Origin: Protonemura montana
Taxonomy: Eukaryota > Arthropoda > Insecta > Plecoptera > Nemouridae
Assembly (NCBI GenBank): GCA_947568835.1
Contig: OX387605.1
Location: 124,001 to 188,000, forward strand
DNA: 64,000 nucleotides
Direction: 5' to 3'
Shown: piece after piece, positions 18,201 through 39,585 of the stretch
Layout of the letters: each line of letters begins with the position of its first letter
Numbering within the stretch: position 1 is the first letter of the stretch
Made by a program: the position numbers and the translations under genes
Notes under the pieces: generated by a model
Databases searched by the model: none
Told to the model about the DNA's origin: nothing
What the model saw: only the letters and a program-made list of their open reading frames with translations

Positions 18201-21200
18201 GTCCAGCTCGTTGTCATGACAACATTTATAAAAGAGTTCACAACGGTGTTCTGCTTTAGCATCAAGTAATGATACAAATTGTCTTGTAGAACGAGGACCG
18301 TGGTTTATTTATAGCAAACAACCTGACAAAAGTTTAACAGAACGTTACCAAAGAACTGATCAAGCTTACATACATTTAGGAAGCTTGATCTTGGTAATTG
18401 TTATAATTTTATGTGGTTCTTTTGTTATTGGAAAATTGTCAGGACTGCTCTTACCCTTGAAGAAGGATCAGGTACAAGTTACGAAACGTTGGGAAATTTA
18501 GTTGTTCTTCACTTGGCATTCAAAACCCAGTTGAAATAGTTTTTGTTAAAACATGGGTTAGCATTGAGATGAAAAGATGTTTAATCCTAAAAACTGGTGA
18601 GAAGCTCAAGTTCTTGACGTACCTTGACAGAGCAGGGGGCGGTGGAAGCGGCGGTAGCATCCTTGCCGCGCAGGAGTTCCTCAAACACACGGTTCGTTAT
18701 TTCGTCCAGAGAAGCAGCCGGTCTCGATCTTGAACTTATCTGTTTCCATAACAAAATTTCATTATTAACAAGTTGGTATTACTCCGGTAATTGCTAGATG
18801 CTAACTCAAGTGAAGCAATCAATAAAAAAAATAGGAAAATTCATAACCTCTCAAATATTGATGTTCAAACAGGGACTCGAACCCCCATCTCCACCTGTCG
18901 CGAGTGTTGCTCTAACCAATTGAGCTACTTGGACCCCGATCTCCACCTGTCGCGGGTGTTGCTCTAACCAATTGAGCTACTTGGACCCCGATCTCCACCT
19001 GTCGCGGGTGTTGCTCTAACCAATTGAGCTACTTGGACCCCGATCTCCACCTGTCGCGGGTCTTGCTCTAACCAATTGAGCTACTTGGACCCCGATCTCC
19101 ACCTGTCGTGGGTGTTGCTCTAACCAATTGAGCTACTTGGACCCCGATCTCCACCTGTCGCGGGTGTTGCTCTAACCAATTGAGCTACTTGGACCCCGAT
19201 CTCCACCTGTCGCGGGAGTTACTCTAACCCATTGAGCTACTTGGACCACGATCTCCACCTATCACGGGTGTTGCTCTAACCAATTGAGCTACTTGGACCC
19301 CAATCTCCACCTGTCGCGAGTGTTGCTCTAACCAATTGAGCTACTTGGACCCCGATCTCCACCTGTCGTGGGTGTTGCTCTAACCAATTGAGCTACTTGG
19401 ACCCCAATCTCCACCTGTCGCGAGTGTTGCTCTAACCAATTGAGCTACTTGGACCCCGATCTCCACCTGTCGTGGGTGTTGCTCTAACCAATTGAGCTAC
19501 TTGGACCCCGATCTCCACCTGTCGCGAGTGTTGCTCTAACCAATTGAGCTACTTGGACCCCGATCTCCACCTGTCGCGAGTGTTGCTCTAACCAATTGAG
19601 CTACTAGGACCCCAATCTCCACCTGTCACGGGTGTTGCTCTAACCAATTGAGCTACTTGGACCCCGATCTCCACCTGTTGCGGGTGTTGCTCTAACCAAT
19701 TGAGCTACTTGGACCCCGATCTCCACCTGTCGCGGGTGTTGCTCTAACCAATTGAGCTACTTGGACCCCGATCTCCACCTGTCGCGGGTATTGCTCTAAC
19801 CAATTGAGCTACTTGGACCCCGATCTCCACCTGTCGTGGGTGTTGCTCTAACCAATTGAGCTACTTGGACCCTGATCTTCACCTGTCGCGGGTGTTGCTC
19901 TAACCAATTGAGCTACTTGGACCCCGATCTTCACCTGTCGCGGGTGTTGCTCTAACCAATTGAGCTACTTGGACCCCGATCTCCACCTGTCGTGGGTGTT
20001 GCTCTAACCAATTGAGCTACTTGGACCCCGATCTTCACCTGTCGCGGGTGTTGCTTTAACCAATTGAGCTACTTGGACCCCGATCTCCACCTGTCGCGGG
20101 TGTTGCTCTAACCAATTGAGCTACTTGGACTCTGATCTCCACCTGTCGCGGGTGTTGCTCTAACCAATTGAGCTACTTGGACTCTGATCTCCACCTGTCG
20201 CAGGTGCTGCTCTAACCAATTGAGCTACTTGGACTCTGATCTCCACCTGTCACGGGTGTTGCTCTAACCAATTGAGCTACTTGGACTCTGATCTCCACCT
20301 GTCGCGGGTGTTGCTCTAACCAATTGAGCTACTTGGACACTGGCTTTTTGAGATGATTTTAGTGTATTTGATGAGAATGACAGTTCTCCAAGGAGTAGAA
20401 TCAAGAGGCTGTGAATACTCACAGTCACTCTGATTCTAGTGACGCTATATCACGTCACAACCTGTCAACTTGAGTAACTCCAATTTGACGTTGGATTTGT
20501 CATATTTATTTGAAATCTTATTTAAATTGCAAACGCTTGCAATGTGCAAAGTATAGTTTAATTAGAAACAGTATCACATCTAGCAGATCTCTGCTCCGCG
20601 ACTGAACTCACCGGGGCGCGCGTTATGTGCAGTCGACGGCCGCGCAAATTGACGCAGTCGGTGTCGCTGCGCAGTGGCTGCTCAAGGTCATCAAGGAACG
20701 CGGAGAACGCTGGGCACGCGAGACCGCGACGTTCCAACAGACGCTGCACGAGTTCACCAACGTGTTCACCCGGTCGCGGTCGCAGAACCGTCGTAGCTCC
20801 GTCCGGGAGCGTGACCCGGCACAAACCCGGACACTCCTGTCAAGCAACAAGCAACATTATACAAATCTGTCTTCACATCTGGCCATGTGGTCTTATCATG
20901 ATAAAGCTAACCTAGCCTAGAAGGGAATCCCTGTGCAAGCACATAACCTACTCCTGTTGAATTCACCCATTCAATACCTGACCCTGCACAATGTTGCTTA
21001 ACTTTCATCCCTCCAACCTCTCTTCCAAACAGAACTGGTCATGTGTATGATGGTCACCCATCCAATACCTGACCCAGCGCAATGTTGCTTAACTTTCATC
21101 CCTCCAACCTCTCTCCCGAACAGAACTGGTCATGTGTATGATGGTCACCCATCCAATGCCTGACTCAGCGCAGTGTAGCTTAACTTTCATCCCTCCAACT

Positions 21201-37129: not shown

Positions 37130-37450
37130 ACTCTGAATTAATTAAAAGGGGAATTAGTGAAAGCATTTTGGATGAAATCAAATCCATTGTCCATTGTATC
37201 CATATGCACCTAAGATAGGAGAAAAGATAAAAAAAAGTACTGTTGATAAACCAGATTTGTACAGCATTTAGAGCAGATAGATAAATAAGTACAATGGTAA
37301 GACCAGTGAAGGATCAGGTTCCATTAGAATGAAAGGGTGTCTATGAAGTAAGTTGTGAATGTGGAAAAGTTTACATAGAAGAAACAAGTAATAAAATTAG
37401 CTCAAGAGTCGAGGAAAGACTCAGGCTCAAAAACCCAAAAACAATCAGAA
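37130..37450 (+). mobile_element. Penelope-like element fragment (start of GIY-YIG endonuclease)
   Basis: The plus strand encodes VRPVKDQVPLE and GVYEVSCECGKVYIEETSNK, the GVY-I-CxCGKVYIGxT signature at the start of the GIY-YIG domain of Penelope-like retroelements. The copy is decayed and short. It is flanked by the dispersed repeat at 36762-36979. Confidence 0.8.
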
Positions 37451-37529: not shown

Positions 37530-38735
37530 GTGGAATGCTTTTGTCATTTCCTCCACACTGCAGCCTCTGCATAATCTGCAGCCTCTGGACCGCTCTGTTT
37601 ACAGCCCATTGAAATATGTCAACAGCACGAGCGATGCCTGGATGGTCAACCATCCCGGTGCAACAATCAATATTTTTGACATTCCAAAAGTTGTAGAGAT
37701 GTGCTTCACGGTGTTTGCTCTGTTTAATGAGATTGTTGACCCTAAAAAGGGCCTTGGCTCTCGACGTCAGTCTCCTGAAGATGACAAGCCGTGACTTGTC
37801 GAAACGTCGAGAGCCAAGGCCCTTTTTAGGGCCAACAATCTCATTAAACAGAGCAAACACCGTGAAGCACATCTCTACATCCACCAACGGCTCTGGAAAC
37901 CTTCACCATACCATTCCAAAAGTTGTTAAACAAGCGTTGCCACATGCGATTTCACCTATGAACATTTTGTCTGGGTGCAAGGTAAGCGGTATTTCACCTT
38001 TTAATCGTGATATTTTCACAGAAGACAAGTTTGTGCCAGCGTTTGTGACAGACAGACCAAATCTTGGCGACGGAGGTGAAGAACACGTTGCTGGTGTAAG
38101 CCTTATTGAACGAGCTGACCAATTAGAGCATGCTGATATCAGTCTACTTGAAGATGTGGCAGCTGAAGTCGAGGACCGCGGTGACGTGAACAAAGTTGAC
38201 GACATCAATGAAGTAAATTACATTTTGGATGAACATTGTGTTCTAAATTCGGTTACAGGTATTTTGGAGCTTGTATTGGAATCACAGGTAGCACCAGAAC
38301 AGGTTCGTTGGCACCCATCGCAGCAGGACCGCTGAACGGTGGTGTAAATAGAGCGAACATACGTCGACACTTCACCGCAATCTTGACTGACACCGCCACG
38401 AAGAATACGTCGGCTCAACAAAAACTGAACAAAGATACGCAACGAAATGAGGCCAAACTTAAGTTAGCTTCTGTGGTTAATTTAGAAAAAAAAAAAAATG
38501 CACAAGACTGCAAAAGCTGAGACTGCGGAAGAGGAGTTGGACAACATGGACGGCGACGGAGAATATTTTTGCCTCGCCTACGACGATGCGTACTCTAGAA
38601 GCCGAGCCAATAAGATTGGGCGTCTTGCGTTATGTGCAAGAAATGCACACACAGATTGTAACAACTGCAGCGAAGACAATTCAGCGAACAAATTATATAT
38701 TATGATGGTTTTTAGACTCATGTCTACTTAATTTA
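37530..38735 (+). pseudogene. pogo/jerky-like DDE transposase fossil, interrupted by an insertion
   Basis: The plus strand encodes LQPLDRSVYSPLKYVNSTSD then ATINIFDIPKVV before 37694, and KQALPHAISPMNILSGCKVS then GISPFNRDIFTEDKFVPAF after 37926. This is the C-terminal part of pogo/jerky-type DDE transposases (LQPLDRSV, GIYPFNRNIF). Farther on, CLAYDDAYSRSRANKIGRLA with HTDC recalls the zinc-finger-like tail common in these proteins, though the frame changes between the parts. Only the 3' portion is present and frames are broken, so it is dead. A 217-bp element sits inside it. Confidence 0.82.
37695..37911. mobile_element. 217-bp hairpin element with 15-bp target duplication and hammerhead-like loop
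   Basis: The 15-mer CATTCCAAAAGTTGT occurs at 37680-37694 and 37912-37926, bounding 217 bp that interrupt the transposase fossil. Inside, 37693-37767 and 37804-37878 form a 75-bp inverted repeat with a single mismatch. The 36-nt loop holds CTGAAGA (37775-37781), GACAAG/CTTGTC as a helix, and GAAA (37801-37804), with GTC at 37766-37768 opposite. This is an insertion with target duplication, most likely a non-autonomous Penelope-related element. Confidence 0.8.
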
Positions 38736-38859: not shown

Positions 38860-39120
38860 TATTTATTTTTCACTTGTTCTTTTCATATTCAATATCATGA
38901 GCCAACTCAGACGACAAGGCAAGTTGGCTCACTCGCATTCATTGCTTCATTTTTTAAAAATATTTATTAGGAACAAGAACCTGATTAAAAGTTGCAATTT
39001 TATAATCCTGAATGTCAGCTTTGATGTGATTAATAAAAACATTTAAAAAATGCTATGGTTACGTCATAAAAAAATAAAACATGACAAGTTTGCCAACTAG
39101 CCCTGGTCTTATTTTGCATT
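38860..39120. other. AT-rich spacer
   Basis: No gene or element recognised. A short inverted pair, GAGCCAACT and AGTTGGCTC, lies near 38898-38932. Confidence 0.4.
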
Positions 39121-39367
39121 TCTTGGATTGCTGCATTTCTTGCATTGCTTGCATTGCTTGGATTGCTTGCATTGCTTGGATTGCTTGGATTGCTTGCATT
39201 GCTTGCATTGCTTGCATTGCTTGCATTGCTTGGATTGCTTGGATTGCTTGGATTGCTTGCATTGCTTGCATTGCTTGCATTGCTTGCATTGCTTGCATTG
39301 CTTGGATTGCTTGGATTGCTTGGATTGCTTGCATTGCTTGGATTGCTTGGATTGCTTGGATTGCTGC
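39121..39367. repeat. 9-bp minisatellite ATTGCTTG(C/G) (about 27 copies)
   Basis: Tandem ATTGCTTGC and ATTGCTTGG units. All frames are open on both strands (for example repeated CIAWIA or QSKQCK), which are artefacts. Confidence 0.95.
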
Positions 39368-39585
39368 ATTTCTAAATAAGACTACGGACATTTGGGTTGA
39401 TTTTCTCAAAGTAAATTCATGCTGGCAATTGTTTAGTAATGCATGCTTTTATTGATGCCAGTCTTCAGCAAATTGAGAATTGCTTCATGTTTGTGAGAAT
39501 CATTGGTGCAACTCGTATCAGATTGGTAACCGGTGGAAGATACAACTGGTTTGACAGCGTTCTCCTTGCAGTTCAAACTACGAGC

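Follow-up and report, generated by a model that had tools for sequence, protein, structure and literature searches.

The window analysed here is a stretch of 64,000 nt from Protonemura montana (assembly GCA_947568835.1, contig OX387605.1, positions 124,001 to 188,000), and the coordinates below are those of the window, on the plus strand unless stated otherwise. The initial annotation described a hairpin insertion with a 15-bp target duplication, which is borne out: the left and right target-site duplications, at 37680-37694 and 37912-37926, are exact 15-nt direct repeats (CATTCCAAAAGTTGT), and between them lie two inverted arms of 76 nt each (37692-37767 and 37804-37879), 99% complementary and separated by a spacer of 36 nt. 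The final 3 nt of the left duplication are also part of the left arm. A terminal repeat, consisting of a hammerhead motif, an AUG, the first approximately 45 codons of an ORF and a tail, is present as two inverted arms. The left, inverted arm (37692-37767, minus strand) covers unit positions 30-105; it has no tail, ends at a putative upstream reverse transcriptase (RT) start site and is truncated within the hammerhead. No other sampled arm ends at internal position 30, where this one does. The right, direct arm (37769-37911) has the tail, starts at AGTCTC (or TC further up) and ends in ...CACCATAC. The join between the two cDNAs (37767-37768) has no strand, its TC can be assigned to either arm, and it creates an accidental GTC. 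The AGTCTC at the start of the right arm is a 5' boundary, at which four other subfamily-A copies (L018, L024, L025 and L026) end exactly. The opening codons of the element ORF (MTSRDLSKRREPRPFLGPTISLN...) occupy 37781-37911, the start being placed by comparison with the anole element of PMC11167929. The last pre-tail base, where tail-less arms end and where the upstream RT start site is presumed to lie, is 37879, and the 32-nt tail between the two presumed start sites, found in one arm only, covers 37880-37911.

The insert splits a coding fossil, as was also noted initially, since the flanks joined without one 15-bp copy give a frame that stays open for 167 codons from 37600; the left flank occupies 37600-37679 and the frame resumes at 37912. 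Pfam gave no match for the 167-codon joined-flank frame at E 0.01, therefore 'pogo-like' is still a label from the initial annotation. Just upstream of the interrupted fossil, at 37300-37420, is a remnant of another Penelope-like element (PLE) family, whose frame RPVKDQVPLE*KGVYEVSCECGKVYIEETSNKISSRVEE resembles the corresponding stretch of a second-family copy, L077. Elsewhere in the window, a low-complexity tandem stretch with several open frames lies at 39059-39455 and a tRNA gene was detected by Rfam at 18862-18934 on the minus strand.

The genome (258 Mb, 34 contigs) was searched with a 301-bp query, which returned at least 84 matches (40 of 237 candidates scored). These matches, together with independent copies that have their own target duplications, indicate that the insertion is not due to chance. 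Fetched copies have a common right end, ...CTTCACCATAC, and end 32 nt further in on their inverted side (TGTAGAGATG...), while the inner join varies from copy to copy. The longest copy of the subfamily that was examined (L016, 1,652 bp) contains a 487-aa ORF matching RVT_1 (E 8e-13), with a sub-threshold GIY-YIG match after the RT domain (E 0.0021; 18.7 bits vs the Pfam cut-off of 22.6); a C-terminal GIY-YIG endonuclease is therefore weakly supported. In a related second PLE family, L077 has an 856-aa ORF (RVT_1, E 2.8e-13) and two direct hammerhead-bearing repeats 2,940 bp apart, and L076 has an open ORF of 696 aa; Pfam found RVT_1 alone and no GIY-YIG in the ORFs of both. The repeats have the features of pLTRs, namely inverted arms, one of which carries a 32-nt tail, and direct repeats in L077. 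With its RT, pLTRs, inverted arrangement and 32-nt tail the element is Penelope-like, and the link to hammerhead-bearing PLEs suggested initially was right, a longer copy of the repeat carrying the RT ORF. The ORF of the 1.65-kb copy (L016, 1004-2655) occurs at eight places with 100% identity, with identical ORF copies on C5 (two), C11 (three), C12, C13 and C14. All eight are within about 1.2 Mb of a contig end, and this location and the identity of the ORFs suggest a duplicated subtelomeric block rather than eight insertions.

A complete candidate hammerhead motif lies in the right arm only (37771-37812) and reads TCTC-CTGAAGA-U-GACAAG...CTTGTC-GAAACGTC-GAGA. Stem I has 4 bp (TCTC 37771-37774 with GAGA 37809-37812), stem II pairs GACAAG 37783-37788 with CTTGTC 37795-37800, and stem III is a loopless 2-bp helix (ACGU). 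The CUGANGA and GAAA core and the NUH cut site of a hammerhead are represented by CTGAAGA (37775-37781), GAAA (37801-37804) and GTC, with one extra base, U 37782, after CTGAAGA; the predicted cut follows GTC, at 37808/37809. The loop elements listed in the initial annotation (CTGAAGA, a 6-bp helix and GAAA) are all present. Minimal PLE hammerheads were reportedly described by Cervera and De la Pena in 2014. Hammerheads lacking a real helix III are known from PLE terminal repeats (PMC6155905), and ours, likened to them by general form only, also has no real helix III and occupies the same place. At the gathering score Rfam reported no hammerhead in the whole window. The Rfam search proposed with the initial annotation was also negative for 37690-37915, where none of the 18 matches listed at E values up to 10 was a hammerhead, which is unsurprising for forms without helix III. 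A retrozyme would be non-autonomous and have a full hammerhead including helix III; here helix III is a loopless 2 bp and the longer copy has an RT ORF.

The initial annotation had asked whether other copies lack these elements or fail to conserve the helices. The pattern CTGAAGATG-N(8-26)-CGAAACGTC occurred 191 times in the genome and 0 times for the reversed control; invariance of the core is not evidence, because the pattern fixed the core, and the helices were left free. Across 48 distinct copies, 84.4% of helix cells were paired vs 66.3% in shuffles, cells changed on both sides numbered 105 vs 50.0 +/- 6.8 in shuffles (4-18 when slid), and the covariation score was 0.466 vs 0.189. Pairs with a double change (8 vs 6.5; 74 of 500 shuffles as high) and pair types (18 vs 18.4; 363 of 500 as high) were not above shuffles. 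Helices I and II therefore keep pairing across subfamilies, with three of five measures exceeding shuffles and two not. The changes follow subfamilies, stem I swapping between TCTC/GAGA and AGTC/GACT and stem II having pairs reversed, so the covariation support comes from a few subfamily-level swaps and may reflect few events. Copies truncated further in (e.g. L027-L030) have no hammerhead motif, as truncation predicts. The right-arm motif has the minimal PLE hammerhead form and is a conserved candidate ribozyme.

The hammerhead core overlaps the AUG at 37781-37783, and the extra base after CTGAAGA is the U of this AUG. The extra base had been correctly noticed initially and is not peculiar to this copy, being common to other PLE copies: in the published anole element template it is likewise the U of AUG (PMC11167929). 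The start codon does not fully explain its presence, because A rather than U stands there in the pLTR hammerhead of the L077 family. In L016 an upstream ORF stops at a TGA within CTGAAGATG, two bases ahead of the next AUG (TGAAGATG).

Arms were compared in two samples, with some loci in both: 56 hammerhead-motif loci and 32 loci of the window's own subfamily. The motif loci, out of 191, comprised the first 30 returned and 26 picked by subfamily, not by tail, and form the fairer sample, because the window-subfamily query itself contains the hairpin and tail. Loci L002-L008, which coincide with the window copy and L009-L013, were omitted from the arm counts together with L066-L077 (from the protein search), and L061 gave no hit. 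Removal of the two-armed duplicates L016, L034, L035, L062 and L063 left 44 independent two-armed insertions. L058 and L021 were left out of the head counts and the single-arm tally; L082 and L083 look like one duplicated place and were both kept as single-arm rows. Four of the 44 insertions could not be classified; in all 40 classifiable at both ends, one arm had the tail and the other did not (30 of the 34 in the motif sample were classed and 10 of 10 in the window's subfamily, all mixed). Independent choice of ends by the two arms, at the ratio of 19 tailed to 15 tail-less single arms, predicts that about half would be mixed, and 40 of 40 would then have a probability of about 5e-13. Priming once at each site is accordingly favoured by this count.

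Flanks shared at least 8 bases in 31 of the 44 two-armed insertions vs 2.0% of 1,714 random re-pairings, with fewer than 8 matching bases in the other 13, and the target duplications were variable in length. Two arms are not obligatory, because single-arm copies occur both with and without tail (19 and 14, respectively, with 3 unclear, after removal of two duplicates). A duplication of their own, of at least 8 bases, was found in 6 of 19 single-arm copies with tail and 5 of 15 without, one of these 15 rows being a duplicate, vs about 4% by chance; the no-tail site can thus act as a start alone. The RT start sites are not absolute, because the unclassed L087 has a clear duplication and one arm that begins at unit position 69. 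In 22 of 31 insertions of subfamilies A and B, as judged by eye, the tail is followed directly by CA, and some tail-less ends have TGT in common with the target; short microhomology may guide priming.

The inner ends of the arms point to the 5' end of the RNA. Among 125 arms counted (L106 supplies two pieces), 77 pass the start of CTGAAG, of which 62 end 0-14 nt upstream of it (8 at 0-2 and 54 at 3-14), none at 15-23 nt and 15 at 24 nt or more. Arms ending within 14 nt upstream make up 12 of 18 in subfamily A, 29 of 36 in B and 21 of 23 in A2, where the upstream template is based on two copies. The sequence at this boundary is AGTCTC in A, (AC)AGTC in B and near ACATCATTCTC in A2, and we take it to resemble an arthropod initiator. 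Read from DNA copies, this boundary suggests that the RNA begins just upstream of the hammerhead. At least one arm passes the hammerhead start in 37 of 40 insertions (the tail arm only in 14, the tail-less arm only in 13, both in 10), with neither doing so in 3. A template that begins at the 5' boundary of its repeat would give arms of only about 143 nt, which may be why short hairpins and solo copies of the repeat outnumber ORF-bearing copies. Arm ends also form smaller clusters, noticed post hoc, at unit positions 24-27 and 36-39, close to where stem II and stem I end on their 3' sides; RT stops at folded RNA are possible there.

The two arms of an insertion also mostly carry matching variants: in subfamily B they agree at 107 of 111 variable sites, where independence would predict 64.4, and in A2 at 93 of 110, vs a prediction of 60.7; linked sites are not independent of one another. 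A single RNA, or several RNAs from one locus, is therefore the probable template of both arms; the shared variants would also be expected if one cDNA had been copied from the other.

With considerable confidence, we interpret the hairpin as one short Penelope-like insertion made by two-ended target-primed reverse transcription. The element protein would cut both target strands, and each freed 3' end would prime on RNA of common origin, with the two strands using different members of a pair of adjacent, fixed start sites 32 nt apart on the RNA. Usually at least one cDNA would reach the RNA 5' end just before the hammerhead, and joining of the two cDNA ends head to head would give the hairpin. 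That the hairpin itself points to two-ended priming was overlooked in the initial annotation.

The main competing explanation is self-priming, in which the 3' end of a single cDNA folds back and copies itself into an inverted arm, as proposed with an antisense template in PMC3846280. In its favour, several joins (L010, L011 and L013) contain small palindromes and filler templated locally, and the two arms mostly carry the same variants. However, a copied arm should pass through the tail into target DNA, whereas in all 40 classed insertions the second arm goes no further than the no-tail site; the tail-less single copies with duplications of their own also speak against it, and in vitro RT starts at two sites of this kind (PMC11167929). 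We consider self-priming improbable. Panhandle template-switching on the transcript of an already inverted copy was set aside, as the inner ends cluster at the hammerhead 5' boundary and are not random. A miniature inverted-repeat or foldback DNA transposon would explain terminal inverted arms and target duplications, but it hardly merits belief given that the duplication length varies, that the arms are unequal, since just one bears the 32-nt tail, and have variable inner breakpoints, and that they represent the start of a retroelement ORF.

Two further alternatives concern the hammerhead. The fold initially proposed was a permuted hammerhead built from both arms, with the left arm giving GTC, and this triplet does occur at the join of the window copy. 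The left arm ends ...CTCGACG(T) and the right arm begins with AGTCTC or TCAGTCTC, the TC being ambiguous, and GTC at the left arm end was rejected as a hammerhead part: it arises from the join of this copy, joins vary, and GTC precedes AGTCTC in none of five other short subfamily-A hairpins (L009-L013). Stem I would moreover probably be unable to close in 6 nt, and a complete motif with pairing helices sits in the right arm, all of which makes the permuted fold extremely unlikely. The other alternative is that the hammerhead cleaves and the cut RNA is the usual template, for which the conserved motif and helices can be cited, as well as 7 of 125 arms, which stop at positions 36-39, shortly before reaching the predicted cut. 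Against it, 94 of 125 arms continue past the predicted cut in the upstream direction and none ends exactly at it, which argues that cut RNA is not the usual template, and anole hammerhead mutants still insert in vitro (PMC11167929); we regard it as very unlikely, if slightly less so than the permuted fold.

Extending the interpretation of two-ended priming, we put forward a proposal for and against which we find the case about evenly balanced. An obligatory asymmetric pair of RT sites, one per target strand and on RNA of one origin, would make inverted insertions the normal product rather than a side reaction. The hammerhead would lie at the very 5' end of the mRNA over the start codon (in the 1.65-kb copy also over the preceding stop), so that protein-assisted cleavage could strip the cap and AUG and turn the mRNA into non-coding RNA.

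For the integration of PLEs and their frequent inversion, one paper proposed self-priming, and a later one demonstrated priming in vitro at two sites and on both strands. These two explanations can be told apart when ends are counted across a genome rich in independent hairpins. The sharp 5' boundary beside the hammerhead gives a simple reason for the dominance of short copies, and a concrete place to seek the role of the ribozyme.

In LINE-1 twin priming, both target strands prime on the RNA, which results in an inverted 5' part. The second LINE-1 primer anneals at variable internal places, whereas the second site here is fixed, at a distance of 32 nt from the first. The Penelope elements of Adineta vaga (Arkhipova et al. 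2013, PMC3846280) similarly have inverted pLTRs arranged head to head, short target duplications, a 31-bp tail that is optional on one pLTR, and palindromes at the join; they differ in being low-copy, longer elements explained by self-priming, and no count of a tail rule was found in the part of PMC3846280 drawn on here. A further parallel is Poseidon PAc of Anolis carolinensis (Frangieh et al. 2024, PMC11167929), another sequence in another host, whose protein cuts and extends both target strands in vitro; in our case this is deduced from genomic copies. There too a hammerhead that includes the extra U (CUGAGGAUG...GAAACGUC) marks the ORF start, and RT starts at two adjacent internal sites, near the beginning of the ORF, that match and define the genomic tail. 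The anole in vitro template has a 126-nt UTR before the AUG, whereas a far shorter leader is suggested by most copies in the present genome. The portion of PMC11167929 used for this comparison reports no strand difference in start sites and no count of tail combinations for inverted insertions. Every component of the present system is already in print; what is added here is the one-of-each count, an apparent 5' end for the RNA, and data by which two-site priming can be distinguished from self-priming.
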